DNA of 64,000 bases from positions 248,001 to 312,000 of the forward strand of contig NC_014298.1 of the NCBI RefSeq assembly GCF_000196895.1. The letters are read 5' to 3'. Position 1 is the first letter of the stretch, and each line of letters opens with the position of its first letter. Position numbers and translations under genes: made by a program. The DNA comes from Halalkalicoccus jeotgali B3 (GTDB lineage Archaea > Halobacteriota > Halobacteria > Halobacteriales > Halalkalicoccaceae). The notes below the pieces were generated by a model. It did no database searches, had not been told where the DNA came from, and worked only from the letters and a program-made list of their open reading frames with translations. Shown here piece by piece: positions 20,695 through 31,340 of this stretch.

Positions 20695-20802
20695 GCCTCG
20701 ACCCCGTTGTGGGTTTCCACTCCGTCGCGATGTTGCTTTTGTTGATCGGCTGGATCAGATTCTTGGTTTCAATCCCGCTGTGAGTTTCTATCTTCTGTTG
20801 GC
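20695..20802. CRISPR. Degenerate two-repeat CRISPR relic
   Basis: Two similar segments lie 71 bases apart. Near 20696-20732: CCCCGTTGTGGGTTTCC then ACTCCGTCGCGA. At 20766-20802: GTTTCAATCCCGCTGTGAGT then TTCTATC. Read on the minus strand the second ends GGGATTGAAAC, the conserved repeat end of haloarchaeal type I arrays. From memory the first matches about 29 of 37 bases of a haloarchaeal (Halorubrum-type) repeat. The 34-base gap between them is spacer-sized. The second repeat supplies the stop codon and last codons of the CARF gene. Confidence 0.55.
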
Positions 20803-21608
20803 AGAAACGGGAGTTCCGAGGGATCTAGCCCTAGCTCGTCTATATCTCCATTCACGAGATAGTGAAATGCTTCAGCGGTATTTTTACCACTCTCCGTGGC
20901 TTCGACGAACTGGTGGCGACCTCGCTCTTCAATTGTAATGTACTCGTGATCCAATAGAGGTTTAATGATCTGAGACTGGAGACGGCGATACTTCCCGCGT
21001 ACCTTGTCCTTCACGCCTGAAGCATCATAGTAGGCGATAAATGGGAGCTCTGTATTTTCCCCGTGTTCAATCAGTCGTTTCTTGGCGACAGGGCCCTTCT
21101 CAACGACGTATTCGAGAATCGAAATCTGCTGAGGCTCGGGGGGCTGGATAGGATATTTCGGTAATTCGTATATCTCATCGACATTTTCTGCTACTGGTTC
21201 CTTAGTACCGCCAGCATAATCCTCTGCCGAGACATAGTACGGACGTGCTCCAGTTGCCATGCAGGCGATCATACCTCCAATAGCAGTAACTTTGCTTCCG
21301 GACGCGAGATTCACATGTACGTTGTGATCCTCAAACGCTGTTGCGATCTCTGCAATCGTTCCAAGTGAATCATAGAGGTCAAAGAGGTTGCAAGGGACTG
21401 TTGCGACCTCTATTCCCATAGATTTCAGGTCCTCCCGAATATCATGGTGGTATTCTGGTGTGACAATATCGTCATCTTGCTTTGCAATATCTGTCTCTCG
21501 ATAATCTAAGAGAATCACGAAATCGGCTTGTTGCTGGTCAGCTGCCTTTACGATCCGATCATACTCATAGCCAAGCGGCATGAGGTGTAACCGTTGTTTA
21601 ACGTCCAT
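20769..21608 (-). CDS. HFX_2341/DUF6293-type regulator with CARF-like domain
   Basis: This 279-residue protein has an N-terminal Rossmann-like CARF region. It starts MDVKQRLHLMPLGYEYDRIV, has the strand FVILLDYRET, and the ligand-loop signature VNLASGSKVTAIGGMIACMA at about residues 98-118. The C-terminal half is a winged helix (ISILEYVVEKGPVAKKRLIE, RRLQSQIIKPLLDHEYITIE). CARF domains sense cyclic oligoadenylates, so it probably links nucleotide signals to transcription. It is divergent from the Upf1-like helicase at 21882. Its final codons (DRNSQRD) come from a CRISPR-like repeat, so its C-terminus may have been altered. Confidence 0.78.
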   Translation of the reverse strand: MDVKQRLHLMPLGYEYDRIVKAADQQQADFVILLDYRETDIAKQDDDIVTPEYHHDIREDLKSMGIEVATVPCNLFDLYDSLGTIAEIATAFEDHNVHVNLASGSKVTAIGGMIACMATGARPYYVSAEDYAGGTKEPVAENVDEIYELPKYPIQPPEPQQISILEYVVEKGPVAKKRLIEHGENTELPFIAYYDASGVKDKVRGKYRRLQSQIIKPLLDHEYITIEERGRHQFVEATESGKNTAEAFHYLVNGDIDELGLDPSELPFLPTEDRNSQRD

Positions 21609-21881: not shown

Positions 21882-23726
21882 ATGAAAGAACAACAAGCCA
21901 CACCACAGATATCTGATAACAACGATCGCAAAACCTACCGACGAAGTCTCAAACTATTCGTCTCCGCTGAAGAAGAAGCCGACCGTGAGGATAACAAGAA
22001 GACGTTTAAGAAGAATGTTAATCCCCGGATCTTAGAATTAGACAAGGATCTTGGATACATCCCAGAAGCAATACTCACCGGGAAACGACATCGAATTTCT
22101 CTCACCTTCCAGGTGCCCTTAGAAGATGATGAAGATTACGACAACGTGAATATTCCCAATAGGTATGGAATTTATCCCCAAAACGAAGTCTTGGTTCGCT
22201 CCTGTAAAAACAGTGGAAATGGAGAATGGGAAACAAGATCCATATATGAAGCAATCGTTTCAGATATAACAAACGCCTCGATCTCGGTGTCATTACACCG
22301 ACTGGCAAGCTCGGAGGAAAAGTTGACACAAGCGTATAGGGAAATCCTCGAAGCTGAGAAAATTGATATTGGAGAATTATTGAACAGAACGCCGTATGAC
22401 CGTGAATTGAAGGGAATTAAAGCATTGTCTGACGGGTACTGTGATATTCTCTTAGGAAATCGCACCGTATCTTTTGGAGCGAACACAGCTACCCAGTCCT
22501 CGCAAAAAGACAGTGTATTGTACGAAAATGACTCCCAACGACGTGGGATTGAGAAGGCTCTTTCTGCAAATGACATAGCTTGTCTGCAAGGCCCGCCCGG
22601 TACTGGAAAAACCCGGGTTATTGTTGAACTTGTCAGGCGCTTCGTTGAAGCTGGAAAACGCGTCCTAGTAACTGCTGAGACTAACAAGGCAGTGGATAAT
22701 ATCTTGTTCGGAGATTCCTCGGAACAGAATATTAAAAACACTTGTTTACATCACTATAATCAGATCGAAGGGCTCAGTGCTGCAAGAGCGAATCCAGATG
22801 CGAGTGACAATCCTCTGGTACACCAGCTCTACGGCCAAGGGGTAACAGGCCGTGAACAAATTGTTCTGACTACCAATAATAGCGCTGCGGGGCTTGACTC
22901 AATGCCACTTGGGAAGGAGTGGTTTGATATCGCAATCATTGACGAGGCTACGCAGGCAACGCAAGCATCAGCAGCAATCCCAATGAGTCTCGCGTCTACT
23001 ACAATTCTGGTTGGAGATCACAAGCAGCTTGGACCTGAGCGAAGTTCTGATCAGCAGGAAGAGGAAACGGTTCCTAGCCAGGTATCACCATTTACGCGTC
23101 TATATGGCGAGGAAGGGCTGTATGGAAGTGCTTTAGGTGTGATGTTTGACACGCAATATCGAATGCACGAGGATATTGCGGCGTTCCCGAATCAGGAGTT
23201 CTACGATGGCCGGCTCCAAAATGGGGGTGAGATCGAGAAACTCGGAAAGGTGTCTCCCATTCTGGCCTCTCATGTTGATGGCCATGAACAGAGGGATGGG
23301 ACATCTCGGTATAATACAAAGGAGATCGAGGAGGTTGTTGATTACGCGACGAGACTGCTCAACCAGACTGATCTTAAGCCAGGTGATATTGGTATTGCAG
23401 CTGCATACCGTAGTCAAGCGGATCGGATTGAAAACCGGGTTGAAGCACTTGATAACGAGGATTATAGTGATATAGACATTTCAACGTTTGACGCCTTCCA
23501 AGGAAGTGAGCGAGAGGGGATGTTACTCTCGTTCACAGTGTCTAACAATCGAGGAGACCTTGGGTTCCTTTCAAAAGGGCAGGGAGAAAGGCGGCTAAAC
23601 GTTGCAATGACCCGCGCTCAGCGCCATCTTGCCCTGTTTGGTGATTGGGATACCCTCCGTACAGATCCTCACGGCCGATTTGAGCGGTTATATCAGACGG
23701 TAGAAGATCGGGGAAAAGTCATCTGA
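21882..23726 (+). CDS. SF1 helicase, Upf1/DNA2-like (AAA_11/AAA_12)
   Basis: This 614-residue protein has an N-terminal OB-like region followed by helicase motif I GPPGTGKTRVIVEL (near residues 237-250), motif Ia TAETNKAVDN, motif II DEATQATQ (near 353), motif III GDHKQLGP, motif IV FDTQYRMHEDIA, motif V TFDAFQGSERE and motif VI LNVAMTRAQRHL. That set is diagnostic of Upf1-like SF1B helicases acting on RNA or DNA. Base composition is more AT-rich than its neighbours, a sign of transfer. It lies between the CARF regulator and a restriction-enzyme relic, so a defence role is plausible. ATG 21882 is chosen. Confidence 0.88.
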   Translation: MKEQQATPQISDNNDRKTYRRSLKLFVSAEEEADREDNKKTFKKNVNPRILELDKDLGYIPEAILTGKRHRISLTFQVPLEDDEDYDNVNIPNRYGIYPQNEVLVRSCKNSGNGEWETRSIYEAIVSDITNASISVSLHRLASSEEKLTQAYREILEAEKIDIGELLNRTPYDRELKGIKALSDGYCDILLGNRTVSFGANTATQSSQKDSVLYENDSQRRGIEKALSANDIACLQGPPGTGKTRVIVELVRRFVEAGKRVLVTAETNKAVDNILFGDSSEQNIKNTCLHHYNQIEGLSAARANPDASDNPLVHQLYGQGVTGREQIVLTTNNSAAGLDSMPLGKEWFDIAIIDEATQATQASAAIPMSLASTTILVGDHKQLGPERSSDQQEEETVPSQVSPFTRLYGEEGLYGSALGVMFDTQYRMHEDIAAFPNQEFYDGRLQNGGEIEKLGKVSPILASHVDGHEQRDGTSRYNTKEIEEVVDYATRLLNQTDLKPGDIGIAAAYRSQADRIENRVEALDNEDYSDIDISTFDAFQGSEREGMLLSFTVSNNRGDLGFLSKGQGERRLNVAMTRAQRHLALFGDWDTLRTDPHGRFERLYQTVEDRGKVI

Positions 23727-23903: not shown

Positions 23904-24374
23904 ATGTCCCAATCTGCTACCCCGACACAAAGCGAGTTCGTCGTTGAGGAATTCGACACAAGCGTCACCGAGGAAACGACAACGCAGCTCGCCCACGAGA
24001 TCGAAGAGATCGTTCGCTCACTCCGACGAGCTATCGATGATGACGATCTAATCGAAGACCTCCTTCGAAACCCCTCCCGTGTCCTTCGAGAGGCTGATTC
24101 CGTCGAACGAAGTGATCCAGAACCACTCACCCAGCAGGTTCTCATTGAGCCGCTATTCGACGCGCTGAACTACCCACCACTCTCGCTCGAAGCAGGCGAC
24201 CTCTCCGATCAGCGCGGTCAGCAGGCCGACTATGCGGCCTCTCTGAACGAGTACGCTGACATCGACTCGAACCGGCTGTTGATCGAAGCGGAGCCAATCA
24301 ACAAACGCCTCGATCAGTCAAAACACGGACTCGACCAAGTCAAAGATTGGCTTGAGAAGGACGAGATAGGTTAG
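23904..24374 (+). pseudogene. Truncated N-terminus of a long restriction-modification enzyme
   Basis: These 156 codons end abruptly at TAG after LDQVKDWLEKDEIG. The core reads QVLIEPLFDALNYPPLSLEA, DLSDQRGQQADYAASLNEYA and SNRLLIEAEPINKRLDQSKH. The LLIEAEP strand with the preceding D-Y resembles the PD-(D/E)XK nuclease edge that opens Eco57I/PglX-like or HsdR-like proteins, where a methyltransferase or helicase follows over 1000 residues. None of that remains. A decayed copy of the same region is at 5078-5230. It could still be made as a short protein, but is most likely a dead relic. Confidence 0.65.
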
Positions 24375-24433
24375 GTATCTCTTCGTGATTTGTACTGCCG
24401 TACTTCTTTAGGAACGTCTAGGAAAGGTGGCGT

Positions 24434-24781
24434 ATGCAGTTTGACGAGCTGAATGTGGCTGTGCGGGAGTTCTGTGAGAGCAGAGACTGGGGACAGTATC
24501 ATACGCCCAAAGACCTCGCTATTGGACTGGTCACGGAATCTAGTGAACTGTTGGAACTGTTCCGGTTCAAGGATCGTACCGAGCAATTGGAACTCCTTGC
24601 AGAGTCTGAAAAGCGTGAGGATATTGAGGACGAACTCGCGGACATCCTGTTCTTTCTGCTCCGATTCGCTGATCTATACGATATTGATCTGGAGGCAGCT
24701 CTAGAGCAGAAACTTGAGAAGAACGGGAAACGATATCCGGAGAACGAATATAAAGGAAGCAATGAAAAGTACGATGAATAA
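24434..24781 (+). CDS. MazG-like nucleotide pyrophosphohydrolase
   Basis: This 115-residue protein starts MQFDELNVAVREFCESRDWG. The catalytic core of MazG-like enzymes is clear: TESSELLELFRF supplies the ExxE pair and EDIEDELADILFFLLRFADL the ExxD pair that binds Mg2+. These enzymes cleave NTPs or dNTPs to the monophosphate and pyrophosphate. The short single-domain form resembles dCTPase/RS21-type proteins. It opens a three-gene operon; the next ATG is five bases after its stop, with a GAGG ribosome-binding-like sequence between. The tight linkage suggests nucleotide depletion is part of the operon's job. Confidence 0.88.
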   Translation: MQFDELNVAVREFCESRDWGQYHTPKDLAIGLVTESSELLELFRFKDRTEQLELLAESEKREDIEDELADILFFLLRFADLYDIDLEAALEQKLEKNGKRYPENEYKGSNEKYDE

Positions 24782-24786
24782 CGAGG

Positions 24787-26676
24787 ATGCTCATCTATGA
24801 AAGTACCAAATCGGGATTCTTGGACGATAACCTGACTGATCAACTGGTCCCGAAAATCAAGCAAGGGTACGAATCGAAAGGACTCGGAATCGGAAGCGAG
24901 AGCGAGGTTCGGTCGTGGGAGAACTCCTTCCAATACATGCACAAGGTACTGAGTGGAAGCGACCTCCCCGACGATGCAGGCGTAGCAATTGAGTTCAAGA
25001 TTCCACTCACCTCCCGTCGCATCGATTTTCTGATTTCGGGATACGACGAGGCCGGAAATGCGAACGTCGCCATCGTTGAGCTCAAACAGTGGGATGGGAA
25101 AACCACAGAAACGGTTGCTGATCAGGATGGGATCGTCAAAACATTCCTTGGCGGAGGGATTCGTGAGACAATCCATCCGAGTTATCAGGCGGCGTCATAT
25201 GCGCAGTTACTGCGGGATTTCAATACCAGTATCCAAGAGAAACCGATTCATCTCTATCCCGCAGCTTATCTCCACAATTTCAAGCCACAATACCGCGAGA
25301 CGATCGATAATCAGATCTACCAACCCTACACGGAGCAAGCACCCCTCTACATCCGTGGTGATGCAAAGAAACTGCGCTCGTTTCTGGAAACCCAGATCGA
25401 CGTGGGGGATGACCGAGAGACCCTCTACGAGTTAAGCGAGGGAGAACTCAGGCCGGCGAAGACGCTTCAAGATTCGCTCCTGGCCATGCTCGAGGAACAG
25501 GACGAGTTCACGTTGATTGACTCTCAGAAGGTTATCTTCGAGACGGGCGTTGAGATGGCACAGCGGTCACACCGTGATGGGCAAAAACGCGTGTTGATCG
25601 TCGATGGTGGGCCCGGAACTGGCAAGACGGTTGTAGCGATCAATATCTTGTCCGAGCTGATTCAAAACGACCTCGTGGCCCAATACGTCTCGAAGAATCG
25701 TGCGCCCAGAGCGGTCTACAAGGAAAAACTTCGGGGCGATAAGCTAGTCAAAGAAATCGAGCATCTGTTTACGGGCGCTGGGAGTTACGTGGAGACGGAG
25801 GCCGATACACTTCCCGCGCTGATCGCTGATGAGGCCCATCGTTTGAACGCGGAATCGACGTTCTTCGGTCGTGGTGAAAACCAGATCATGGAGATCATCA
25901 ACGCCGCGAAATTCAGCGTGTTCTTCATCGATGAAAGTCAGCGCGTTCACATCGATGATATTGGATCGAAAGAGGAGATTCGAAAGCATGCCCATGACTT
26001 GGGTGCTGAGGTCGAGGAGCTAACACTGGAATCGCAGTTCCGTTGTAATGGCTCGGAAGGGTATCTCGCGTGGCTCGATGACGTCCTCGAGATACGGGAT
26101 ACGGCGAATGCAGACGGGTTCGACCTCGACTATGACCTGCAGGTGTTTGATGATCCACAGACGCTTCACGAGACGATTGCGCGTCGGAATGAGGAGACCC
26201 GATTATCGCGGGTAGTCGCCGGCTACTGCTGGGAGTGGGACAAGGAGGGTCGTTCTAACCCGGAGGCGTACGATATCAAAATCGGTGACTACGAGCAAAG
26301 TTGGAATCTCGATACGAGCGAACCGTGGGCGATCGCGGAAGGATCGATCGACGAAGTCGGATGTATTCACACTTGTCAGGGGCTCGAGTTCGACTACGTT
26401 GGTGTGATCATCGGTGAGGATTTGAGATATCGAGATGGTGAGATCGTCGTCGATCACGAGGCCCGTGCGAGCACGGATCGGTCGCTGTTCGGAATCAAGA
26501 AGATGTTCAAGGAGCAACCGGAGAAGGCGGCTGCGAAAGCCGAGGAGTTGATCAAAAATACGTATCGAACGCTAATGAGCCGCGGCATGAAAGGCTGTTA
26601 CATCTACTGCTGTGATGATCAGCTTCAGGAGTATCTCAAAACACGGGTCGCAAACGTCAGTACGGGATCTCTATGA
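24787..26676 (+). CDS. PD-(D/E)XK nuclease-DUF2075 helicase fusion
   Basis: This 629-residue protein has two parts. Residues 70-105 hold a nuclease signature: Asp80 in RRIDFLIS, then AIVELKQWD with Glu98 and Lys100, as in PD-(D/E)XK enzymes. From about residue 270 follows a DUF2075 ATPase/helicase: Walker A DGGPGTGKTVVA, Walker B LIADEAHRL, FFIDESQRV, an Arg-bearing motif LTLESQFRCNG and HTCQGLEFDYVGVII as motif V. DUF2075 proteins often occur in defence islands. The order after MazG and before an EEP nuclease, with gaps of 5 and 21 bases, marks a single transcription unit. Confidence 0.85.
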   Translation: MLIYESTKSGFLDDNLTDQLVPKIKQGYESKGLGIGSESEVRSWENSFQYMHKVLSGSDLPDDAGVAIEFKIPLTSRRIDFLISGYDEAGNANVAIVELKQWDGKTTETVADQDGIVKTFLGGGIRETIHPSYQAASYAQLLRDFNTSIQEKPIHLYPAAYLHNFKPQYRETIDNQIYQPYTEQAPLYIRGDAKKLRSFLETQIDVGDDRETLYELSEGELRPAKTLQDSLLAMLEEQDEFTLIDSQKVIFETGVEMAQRSHRDGQKRVLIVDGGPGTGKTVVAINILSELIQNDLVAQYVSKNRAPRAVYKEKLRGDKLVKEIEHLFTGAGSYVETEADTLPALIADEAHRLNAESTFFGRGENQIMEIINAAKFSVFFIDESQRVHIDDIGSKEEIRKHAHDLGAEVEELTLESQFRCNGSEGYLAWLDDVLEIRDTANADGFDLDYDLQVFDDPQTLHETIARRNEETRLSRVVAGYCWEWDKEGRSNPEAYDIKIGDYEQSWNLDTSEPWAIAEGSIDEVGCIHTCQGLEFDYVGVIIGEDLRYRDGEIVVDHEARASTDRSLFGIKKMFKEQPEKAAAKAEELIKNTYRTLMSRGMKGCYIYCCDDQLQEYLKTRVANVSTGSL

Positions 26677-26697
26677 CGGATATTAAGACACAGGACT

Positions 26698-27837
26698 ATG
26701 GACCAGACTAACGAGGCATCGAGCTCCGAAGCCGATCAACAGTTGAGGCTCATCACGTGGAATGTTGAACGGGCTTCAGTCAACCGCTTCAAAAGCCAAC
26801 TGACAGCTCTCCAAGAGCGTGTTCCCGATATCATTGCCTTGCAGGAAGTCGGGGTAAAAGCGAGTCGACGACCTCGACGACTTCTCCGGGAACATGGGTT
26901 CGAATACACCGCGCATAGTCACGAATATCGGCTTACCGACGCTGGGAACAGTTCTGGTGTCGCATTTGCGAGCCGCTGGCCGTTTCGAATTCTGTCTCCC
27001 GATACGTTCACCATCCCGGCCCAACATCATACCCTCTCTGCGGAGTTTTTCACGCCTTTTGGCCGGGTGGAAGGGCACACTGTCCATGTTCTTCCCGGGT
27101 CGATGGACCATCAGAGGAAAATCGAGATGTTCGAAGGGATTTATGATCGTCTCGCTCAAAACGATCGACCCGACTATCGGTTTCTCTGTGGTGATTTTAA
27201 CTCACCAAAAGAGGAGAGCCAAGACGGTGACGTAACTGTCTGGGGGAGTGACGAACGTAAAATCGAAGCTGAGCGTAGCGTCATCGTTGAACTGGCGGAG
27301 TATGACCTCGCTGACGCCTACCGGGAGGTCAACGGGTACGGGGATGATGAGTATAGTTGGGTAGCCAAAAATCGAGGCAATGAGTGGCCACGACGATTCG
27401 ACCACGTTTTCGCGAGCGAGCACCTCAATGCGACCGAAGCCTCGTATCTCCACGAGTATGACGATCTCTCGGATCACACGCCACTCAAGGTAGTCTTCAC
27501 ACCGAAAGACGGCTTGCGCAAGGAGAATGAAGCAATTGACCGCAGCTCCTATACAGCATCTCGGGATCGTAGTGGAACTGATTCTAATTCCACTATAGCG
27601 TCTAGTGAACTAACATACGATGAGGATGTTCGAGCAGTTGCCCCTGACGCTAACTACCGTCGCGGTAGGTTCAAAGCCGGTTGGAACAAAAGCGTTGCTG
27701 GCGTAGAGATGGATGCTGCGTTAGACCGACTTACTTGGGAAAATCTTGGCTGGCGATTGGGCAAACTCTTCGGCGATACTTCGGAAGAACTCCAAGAAGA
27801 ACTCTATGAGTGGTGTGTGAAACAGCAAGTAGAATAG
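26698..27837 (+). CDS. Endonuclease/exonuclease/phosphatase (EEP) family protein with C-terminal extension
   Basis: This 379-residue protein starts MDQTNEASSSEADQQLRLIT. The EEP fold is visible: LITWNVERA, IIALQEVG (metal-binding Glu), CGDFNSP (Asp and Asn), FDHVFASEHL and LSDHTPLKVVF (catalytic His). These act on nucleic acids or phosphoesters, as exonuclease III and DNase I do. About 100 residues follow the EEP domain: an Asp/Ser/Thr-rich linker and a helical end (MDAALDRLTWENLGWRLGKL). A variant of this end may bind a partner. It is the last gene of the MazG/DUF2075 operon. Confidence 0.86.
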   Translation: MDQTNEASSSEADQQLRLITWNVERASVNRFKSQLTALQERVPDIIALQEVGVKASRRPRRLLREHGFEYTAHSHEYRLTDAGNSSGVAFASRWPFRILSPDTFTIPAQHHTLSAEFFTPFGRVEGHTVHVLPGSMDHQRKIEMFEGIYDRLAQNDRPDYRFLCGDFNSPKEESQDGDVTVWGSDERKIEAERSVIVELAEYDLADAYREVNGYGDDEYSWVAKNRGNEWPRRFDHVFASEHLNATEASYLHEYDDLSDHTPLKVVFTPKDGLRKENEAIDRSSYTASRDRSGTDSNSTIASSELTYDEDVRAVAPDANYRRGRFKAGWNKSVAGVEMDAALDRLTWENLGWRLGKLFGDTSEELQEELYEWCVKQQVE

Positions 27838-29577: not shown

Positions 29578-30858
29578 CTACGTTGCAATCGGGTGCACAA
29601 GTTCCCACTTATCCTCCAGAACCTCGGCTTTGGCGTCTGTTCCACCCGCTGTGAGAAGTCCGATGTGATAGAGCTGGAATTTGAATTGGAAATGGATCCC
29701 TGATTTGTAGACAGTCGGGTCAGTCAGCATCGATTCAGCAATATCTCCCTCAGCGGTGAGAACATCCTCGCGCCGATCTTGCGTGATGAAGACCTCAACT
29801 GCGAGCGGTTGGTTGATGTAACAGGCTTCCGTGAGGACATCGTCGATAGTCGCGGGTCGAACACCGCGTTGGTGAAGACGTTCGAGGGCTTCGACGACGA
29901 GTTGGGTTGGATCGTACTGGATTGCGACTGACCGGGCGAGTTGCGCCCAGCGGGGAGCAAGATCGGTAAACGGGGTCGATCGGCCTTTCCAAAATGCGAA
30001 TTCCTCAAGTGCAGCGCTGATACTTCCATGTTGGTTGCGGGCAAAACGGACGACCTCTGCACCAAGTTGCGTGAGGGTCTCTCCACTCGGTCGATTATCG
30101 GCGAGCCCGAGCAAAAGTGCGCCACGACGACCGCCTGATACGCTATTAATCACGTACTCCGAGTAGGTCTCGTCTGTATCACCGTTCGCAGCGAGGGCGA
30201 GTGCATACCCGAGGTAGTTCTTCGGATGGTTGACCGGGAAGCTCCCATCGGTAAGTTGGTGTGTGGTTGCTTGAAATCGGATCGCATCGATAGTGGTCGA
30301 GAAGTCGCCGGCACCGGTGACTCGAGCTGGTTCGACGAGCGTTCCAGTCTGGGTAGTATCGACACCGATGATGCCGATATTGAGGTTGCGTGCGAGGGCG
30401 CGTGCCTGATTCGTGATACTCCTGAGAGGGGCAGCGACATATCCGAGGTTGACCTCCGAAAGATGCCCATGGGCTTGGGTGATCCCAGTGTGGACGTCCG
30501 CTTTGCTTGGGTCGTTGTTGTGGCCTTTCGCTTCGATTACGGCGACAGGAGTAGTTGCTGTGGTAGCGTTCAGTACCCCTTCTGTTGGCATCCCAACGCC
30601 CAGGAGGTCGGGTTCCCCGCTGGCGAGACGAAGCGTGTTGTAGGGTTCGAGACGACGACGAACGTCGTCTGGAATCGTCCATGTGCCCCACGTGGCGGTA
30701 GTGAACTGGGTTTCCGTGACGGCGTACTGCTCCGAATCAGTGTTGAGGTTCTGGTAGAGAGTTTCTTTCGCGGCAGCGAGAACGGCTGGTTCGGCGAGTG
30801 TAGCTGCCATTAGCGGGTCTTCTGATTCGACCCCATTAAATCGGGTCGTTTCGTCCAA
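29578..30858 (-). CDS. Predicted PD-(D/E)XK nuclease-like protein of unknown family
   Basis: This protein has up to 426 residues; the start may be the ATG at 30810 (MAATLAEP). The only motif I see is a nuclease-like one: EPDLLGVGMP with Asp84, then TTPVAVIEAKGHNND with Glu109 and Lys111, the spacing of PD-(D/E)XK. The rest is alpha-rich (VVRFARNQHGSISAALEEFA, FTDLAPRWAQLARSVAIQYD) and I do not recognise it. It lies downstream of a DUF6884 gene on the same strand with a 56-base gap, probably one operon. A two-gene defence unit is plausible. Confidence 0.6.
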   Translation of the reverse strand: MDETTRFNGVESEDPLMAATLAEPAVLAAAKETLYQNLNTDSEQYAVTETQFTTATWGTWTIPDDVRRRLEPYNTLRLASGEPDLLGVGMPTEGVLNATTATTPVAVIEAKGHNNDPSKADVHTGITQAHGHLSEVNLGYVAAPLRSITNQARALARNLNIGIIGVDTTQTGTLVEPARVTGAGDFSTTIDAIRFQATTHQLTDGSFPVNHPKNYLGYALALAANGDTDETYSEYVINSVSGGRRGALLLGLADNRPSGETLTQLGAEVVRFARNQHGSISAALEEFAFWKGRSTPFTDLAPRWAQLARSVAIQYDPTQLVVEALERLHQRGVRPATIDDVLTEACYINQPLAVEVFITQDRREDVLTAEGDIAESMLTDPTVYKSGIHFQFKFQLYHIGLLTAGGTDAKAEVLEDKWELVHPIAT

Positions 30859-30914
30859 CGGACGCCGTGGAATTCTCCAAACCGTCTCTACTGGTGATAC
30901 GCGTACTCAAACTG

Positions 30915-31340
30915 TTATTGGTGGTCGTTGTACCACGCGAGTGTGTTGCCGATCTGGAGGCCCTCCGTTGGGACTTCGATCGAGACCGGCTCGTCTTTGA
31001 GAAGGGGAAGGAGTGGTTCGTAGTAGGCTTTCCCGGCATGGATCACGAGGGTTGTATCAGGTTTGAGGAGGCCGTTTGTACTCAGTTGATCGAAAACGGT
31101 TTGGGCCCACTCGCGGCGCTGATCAACTGTCGCAGTGGTCAACGTCTCTTCGTAGGGATCAATCGGTGGACCATCCGGATCAAGTAGATGATGCTTTGCG
31201 GAGAGAACGTACCAGTCATCGTGAACGCGTTCGGTGTACGCACGAGCTTTCCTGAAGAGCGGCGACTCCATATAGAGATCCTTCGGTTGTGCGGAGTCGT
31301 CGCGTTTGCTCTTGGTGCAACTAATCAATCCGATTTCCAT
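30915..31340 (-). CDS. DUF6884 family protein
   Basis: This 141-residue protein matches DUF6884: MEIGLISCTKSKRDDSAQPK, LYMESPLFRKARAYTERVHD, WYVLSAKHHLLDPDGPPIDP and YEETLTTATVDQRREWAQTV, then LVIHAGKAYYEPLLPLL. The family has a Rossmann-like core and conserved Cys, Lys and His near the start (CTKSK, AKHHLLDP). Such proteins are frequent in phage-defence islands; a nucleoside- or base-handling role has been suggested, but no reaction is established here. It is the first gene of the pair with the PD-(D/E)XK-like protein. Confidence 0.75.
   Translation of the reverse strand: MEIGLISCTKSKRDDSAQPKDLYMESPLFRKARAYTERVHDDWYVLSAKHHLLDPDGPPIDPYEETLTTATVDQRREWAQTVFDQLSTNGLLKPDTTLVIHAGKAYYEPLLPLLKDEPVSIEVPTEGLQIGNTLAWYNDHQ

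Follow-up and report, generated by a model that had tools for sequence, protein, structure and literature searches.

In Halalkalicoccus jeotgali B3, three consecutive genes on one strand encode a predicted nucleotide pyrophosphohydrolase, a helicase-nuclease and a second nuclease, and the question raised by this locus is whether all three, or only some of them, belong to one antiviral system. The DNA analysed was a 64,000-nucleotide stretch of contig NC_014298.1 (positions 248,001 to 312,000), referred to here as the window, and coordinates are those of the window unless a locus is named.

Gene content of the locus

The first gene (24434..24781, + strand) encodes a 115-aa MazG-like nucleotide pyrophosphohydrolase of the DCTPP1 type (PF12643, 45 bits; PF03819, 34 bits). 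The second (24787..26676, +) encodes a 629-aa protein in which a PD-(D/E)XK region (residues ~60-160) precedes a Schlafen-group-3 SF1 helicase (267-610; PF09848, 370 bits), and the third (26698..27837, +) a 379-aa EEP-family, ExoIII-like nuclease with a C-terminal haloarchaeal domain (PF03372, 77 bits). A check of the open reading frames placed 5 bases between the MazG and helicase-nuclease genes and 21 bases between the latter and the EEP gene. A preliminary description of this DNA had listed three genes with these gaps, and had named the outer two as a (d)NTP pyrophosphohydrolase and an EEP nuclease; the re-derived coordinates agreed and the Pfam matches bore out both names.

The same description had placed the genes in a block with a helicase, a CARF regulator and restriction relics. 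The CARF3 protein and the SF1 helicase were recovered, while the supposed restriction relic at 23904-24374 found no match in Pfam or PADLOC; fragments of this frame are present in the sister genome. The CARF3 protein (20769-21608), which belongs to the HFX_2341/DUF6293 type and has a winged helix, scores 309 bits against a PADLOC CARF3 model, and no recognised effector operon was found near it. The SF1 helicase (21882-23726) is IGHMBP2-like and resembles Mokosh MkoA over the helicase domain (242 bits). On the other side, within 29578-31340, a DUF6884 gene (30915-31340; PADLOC PDC-M57A) adjoins a gene whose 426-aa product carries a VIEAKG motif; this protein was assigned to PD-(D/E)XK by eye and has no Pfam match. 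A DUF6884 gene also adjoins an annotated PD-(D/E)XK protein on a Halosegnis plasmid (L223, 477-2423), 3 kb from a MazG.

Active sites of the helicase-nuclease and MazG

The match to PF09848 (SLFN-g3 helicase, formerly DUF2075; E 1.6e-110, against a cut-off of 24 bits) places the 629-aa protein in Schlafen group 3. No Pfam nuclease model passed its cut-off in the N-terminal half, NERD reaching 16.1 against 22.1 bits. The reading of this protein as a nuclease-helicase fusion with Asp80, Glu98 and Lys100 was nevertheless upheld by alignment, as D80, E98 and K100, together with Q134 and Y138, were invariant in 42 archaeal and bacterial relatives, and apart from a single gap the 79 MazG-helicase pairs keep them too. 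Together these residues form a PD-(D/E)XK pattern that includes a QxxxY motif. In an AlphaFold2 model (pLDDT 84.1) the catalytic set is held by strands 78-86 and 92-100, and alignment and model together put the conserved D...ExK residues in the strands expected of the PD-(D/E)XK superfamily. Walker K280 and D348/E349 of the helicase are likewise conserved among aligned relatives, and Foldseek matched the protein to the SF1 helicases RecD2, human SLFN11, RecD and Dna2.

The MazG of the window carries the ExxE (E35, E38) and ExxD (E67, D70) motifs, and in the 79 aligned pairs E35, E67, D70 and K93 were present in 100% and E38 in 99%. Its closest solved relatives include PDB 4qgp and dCTP pyrophosphatase 1 (DCTPP1, RS21-C6), and the match to the latter spans nearly all of MazG (E 6e-17), so that the metal-binding motif and the sequence match of a DCTPP1-type enzyme are both present. 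DCTPP1 is described as binding both dCTP and its modified forms with high affinity (PMC7162842, PMC4491611). Because MazG resembles DCTPP1, we infer that its substrate is dCTP or modified dCTP. DCTPP1 differs, however, in being a cellular pool enzyme without nuclease linkage, whereas MazG of the window type is paired with a nuclease. Several Bacillota relatives of MazG lie in housekeeping-like gene contexts, and the subfamily is therefore not solely a defence family.

MazG and the helicase-nuclease form a well-supported candidate unit

Helicase relatives were drawn from 242 haloarchaeal genomes and from GTDB contigs, where at least 454 were confirmed and 80 loci retained, and further relatives from Bacillota and Bacteroidota samples and from plasmid and phage records. 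Among 88 non-redundant loci (Haloarchaea, Methanobacteria, Bacillota, Bacteroidota and other taxa), 64 had a MazG gene in the same orientation as the helicase and no more than 300 bp from it; two more loci had it on the opposite strand, and about a quarter of the helicases had no MazG nearby. MazG was upstream of the helicase at 41 of the 64 loci and downstream at 23, and the linkage thus outlives rearrangement. Such a change of side with linkage kept favours functional coupling over inheritance of one unbroken segment. The association was reciprocal: a MazG accompanied 11 of the 13 full-length helicases found in Halobacteria, and a search of 234 haloarchaeal genomes for MazG gave 17 strong hits (E < 1e-15), 11 of which adjoined the helicase. 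In Bacteroidota, MazG was adjacent or ~1 kb away for 10 of 11 helicase hits, two of these cases being judged from coordinates only. Paired MazG and helicase distances were correlated (r 0.57, permuted maximum 0.16), in a test that common descent inflates, and the correlation fell to 0.25 when the helicase pairs considered were those with less than 65% identity.

When the neighbours at 105 loci were clustered, MazG was found at 77, followed by NUDIX at 11; a constant third gene beside the pair was looked for among these neighbours and rejected on the same counts. NUDIX genes were seen near three loci that lack MazG (L021, L046, L076), where they would be putative substitutes for it.

The reciprocal linkage, the swapped order, the intact active sites, and the patchiness, plasmid copies and restriction neighbours described below make MazG and the PD-(D/E)XK-DUF2075 helicase a well-supported candidate defence unit, as judged from sequence. 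The candidate new defence operon of the preliminary description is accordingly retained as a two-gene unit, on the strength of the reciprocal linkage, and given up as a three-gene operon, which is not conserved.

The EEP gene lies outside the conserved pair

The inclusion of the EEP gene in one operon, as first proposed, is compatible with its position on the same strand after a 21-base gap in the window genome, and its relatives do occur in defence neighbourhoods. No EEP relative was detected, however, at helicase loci L019-L112, so that of the three families only MazG and the helicase show conserved linkage. A blastn comparison of the window with the sister genome G200 (locus L019) gave a collinear block at 24379..26674 (+ strand, 87.6% identity) that starts ~55 bases before the MazG gene and runs through the helicase-nuclease gene to its stop codon, where homology is lost until 29574. 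The break at the stop codon means that the EEP gene and an FGGY kinase gene occupy a gap starting there. The EEP relatives, moreover, have other partners, three of them (~70% identity) lying in other settings: one beside a PifA-like KAP NTPase, one near a Mokosh-like helicase and one among DUF6884/TGT-like genes. A three-gene operon is therefore highly improbable, and the EEP gene looks like an independent defence-island neighbour outside the conserved module.

Across the EEP family (window 26698-27837; L143, L144, L145) we observed defence neighbourhoods with changing partners, an AAA-EVE protein among them. The helical tail that had been called unique is not so: residues ~302-378, the C-terminal part of the EEP protein, correspond to a common short haloarchaeal ORF and match many such ORFs.

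Other nucleases beside the MazG subfamily

Relatives of MazG that are not beside the PD-(D/E)XK form often adjoin another nuclease. Fusions of GIY-YIG with PF09848 were found beside MazG in Bacteroidota, in Bacillota and on a Ligilactobacillus plasmid, which by sequence is an exchange of the nuclease domain, GIY-YIG for PD-(D/E)XK, with MazG kept. The GIY-YIG protein with a Schlafen-g3 helicase lies directly beside MazG at L286, L287, L289, L271-L274 and L214, the GIY-YIG call being partly one of family resemblance for L288, and also for L273, which scores just under the Pfam cut-off. Some of these proteins carry a C-terminal S24-peptidase-like domain.

Proteins with HNH, or with PD-(D/E)XK recognised by eye, were found beside MazG in Haloarchaea, Bacteroidota, Bacillota and Actinomycetota, and share a common N-terminal region in linked homology groups. 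By eye this region in the HNH family is PUA/EVE-like, although Pfam reports no such domain there. The HNH region of two of the proteins matches the PADLOC Type IV methyl-directed restriction enzyme. Members of this reader-like HNH or PD-(D/E)XK-like family were seen beside MazG at L208-L213, L223, L276, L277, L215, L219 and L180. We take them as candidates for modification-dependent restriction enzymes that are partnered by MazG. One haloarchaeal genome has an McrC-like fragment beside a MazG relative, and on a Priestia plasmid MrcB_N-HNH, MazG and the helicase stand in a row. Reader-like or MrcB_N proteins occurred only beside related MazG genes, and no modified-base reader domain was recognised by Pfam or PADLOC in the window pair itself. 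Since several Bacillota MazG genes also lie among apparent housekeeping genes, the nuclease-neighbour pattern is a tendency and no rule.

Distribution and mobility

Helicase relatives were patchily distributed (17 of 242 Halobacteria, 8 of 299 Bacillota and 11 of 198 Bacteroidota genomes). Copies of the pair were found on plasmids, some beside restriction-modification genes, and the helicase relatives include one phage record; the viral contigs searched yielded no relative. Split or remnant helicase genes at L022, L031, L032 and L175, in other Halobacteria and on a Marivirga plasmid, are consistent with repeated gain and loss. The flanks of the pair were also compared for defence-gene enrichment with a random control region, which itself held CRISPR genes and so weakens the comparison.

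Comparison with known systems

Against PADLOC 2.0.0 (2023) the window helicase gave partial matches only (PDC-S41 67, AbiO 43 and Nhi 39 bits), and no family matched MazG at E values as high as 0.1. The earlier description had stated that no described system with this set was known to its author. The best stretch of the PDC-S41 match covered 6-293 of 657 profile positions, and MazG-type family members and relatives from bacteria behaved likewise, five of those tested scoring 47-74 bits, against 803 bits over 3-652 for a true member. PDC-S41, a single-gene candidate, has a PD-(D/E)XK-like N-terminus and a PF09848 helicase in common with the window protein and adjoins the MazG-helicase pair in some genomes, but differs in being one gene whose system definition lacks MazG. 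The Nhi (185-331 of 470) and AbiO (176-329 of 468) profiles matched residues ~240-421 of the window helicase only, leaving its nuclease half unmatched; one Bacillota relative matched Nhi over 18-332 with 55 bits. With partial profile matches only, identity of the pair with PDC-S41, Nhi or AbiO was rejected. Nhi is an example of immunity by a nuclease-helicase, and to our knowledge no MazG partner has been described for Nhi or AbiO.

Vertebrate SLFN11 and SLFN14 have the helicase fold (Foldseek 7zel, 9nyy) and the Pfam helicase name in common with the window protein but carry an N-terminal nuclease of another kind and lack MazG. Type IV enzymes with HNH or McrBC/MrcB_N domains adjoin the same MazG subfamily, and the Priestia plasmid joins both kinds, but the window helicase protein differs from them in having no recognised modified-base reader domain. 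PF09848 serves as an Abi-protein marker (PMC10121019). DefensePredictor counts MazG among the domains that it predicts, without validation, to act in defence; the passages covered of that paper (PMC13092281) leave the partner gene unstated, and its candidate may or may not be the same system. In the open-access papers searched, DUF2075 did not turn up together with MazG, and looking for it in connection with phage defence had no hits. From these comparisons, MazG and the helicase look like an undescribed antiviral pair.

A putative restriction-type module and its alternatives

A defence role of the pair is what we infer, and the reading to which we give somewhat better than an even chance is a mobile two-gene restriction-type module, in which the helicase-nuclease would attack foreign DNA and MazG would remove dCTP or modified dCTP. 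The helicase-nuclease would load on foreign or abnormal DNA, translocate with ATP and cut. MazG would convert dCTP, or dCTP with a modified base, to the monophosphate by hydrolysis. This could starve or corrupt replication of the invader; alternatively, it may prevent modified cytosine from entering host DNA, which the nuclease would then spare.

Nucleotide depletion by MazG is possible, and attack on the nucleotide pool is an established defence strategy, with dCTP deaminase and dGTPase systems as precedents. In an abortive-infection version (the logic of the preliminary description minus the EEP gene), the helicase-nuclease would detect the infection, and breakdown of the dCTP or dNTP pool by MazG would halt both viral replication and the cell; this version draws on the intact MazG-family active site and its relation to dCTP pyrophosphatase. 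The small MazG, however, has no visible sensor or switch, its relatives in housekeeping-like contexts point to an enzyme that cells can tolerate constantly, and the pairing with type-IV-like nucleases is left unexplained; we consider this version unlikely. Given those same MazG relatives beside type-IV-like nucleases, modified dCTP is at least as likely a target as general depletion. Pressed further, this would make MazG a self-protection factor of modification-sensitive nucleases: by hydrolysing modified dCTP that comes from salvage or from phages, it would bar modified cytosine from host DNA and leave modified DNA as a safe mark of non-self, a proposal we regard as a minority possibility.

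MazG-type enzymes are known house-cleaners, and Foldseek neighbours of the helicase-nuclease include the repair helicases RecD2 and Dna2, as would suit a pair in which MazG clears damaged dNTPs and its partner processes damaged or stalled DNA with no part in defence. That the pair occurs in a few percent of genomes, has plasmid and broken copies and adjoins restriction systems is unlike core repair genes, and makes a repair function improbable. Tight coupling in both gene orders, with a small partner beside a nuclease, could also recall toxin-antitoxin pairs, MazG binding or restraining the helicase-nuclease; with about a quarter of helicases lacking an adjacent MazG, and with MazG catalytic residues conserved that binding alone would not need, such restraint is decidedly improbable.

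If the restriction-type reading is correct, a widespread two-gene candidate, with at least 454 helicase relatives confirmed, would join known nuclease-helicase immunity, and prokaryotic relatives of the Schlafen helicases would be tied to a nucleotide-pool enzyme. If the self-protection proposal holds, this MazG subfamily would be a portable partner of nucleases with unrelated architectures (PD-(D/E)XK-Schlafen, GIY-YIG-Schlafen and reader-HNH). The pair thus raises the question of whether a pool enzyme may define self for a DNA nuclease.
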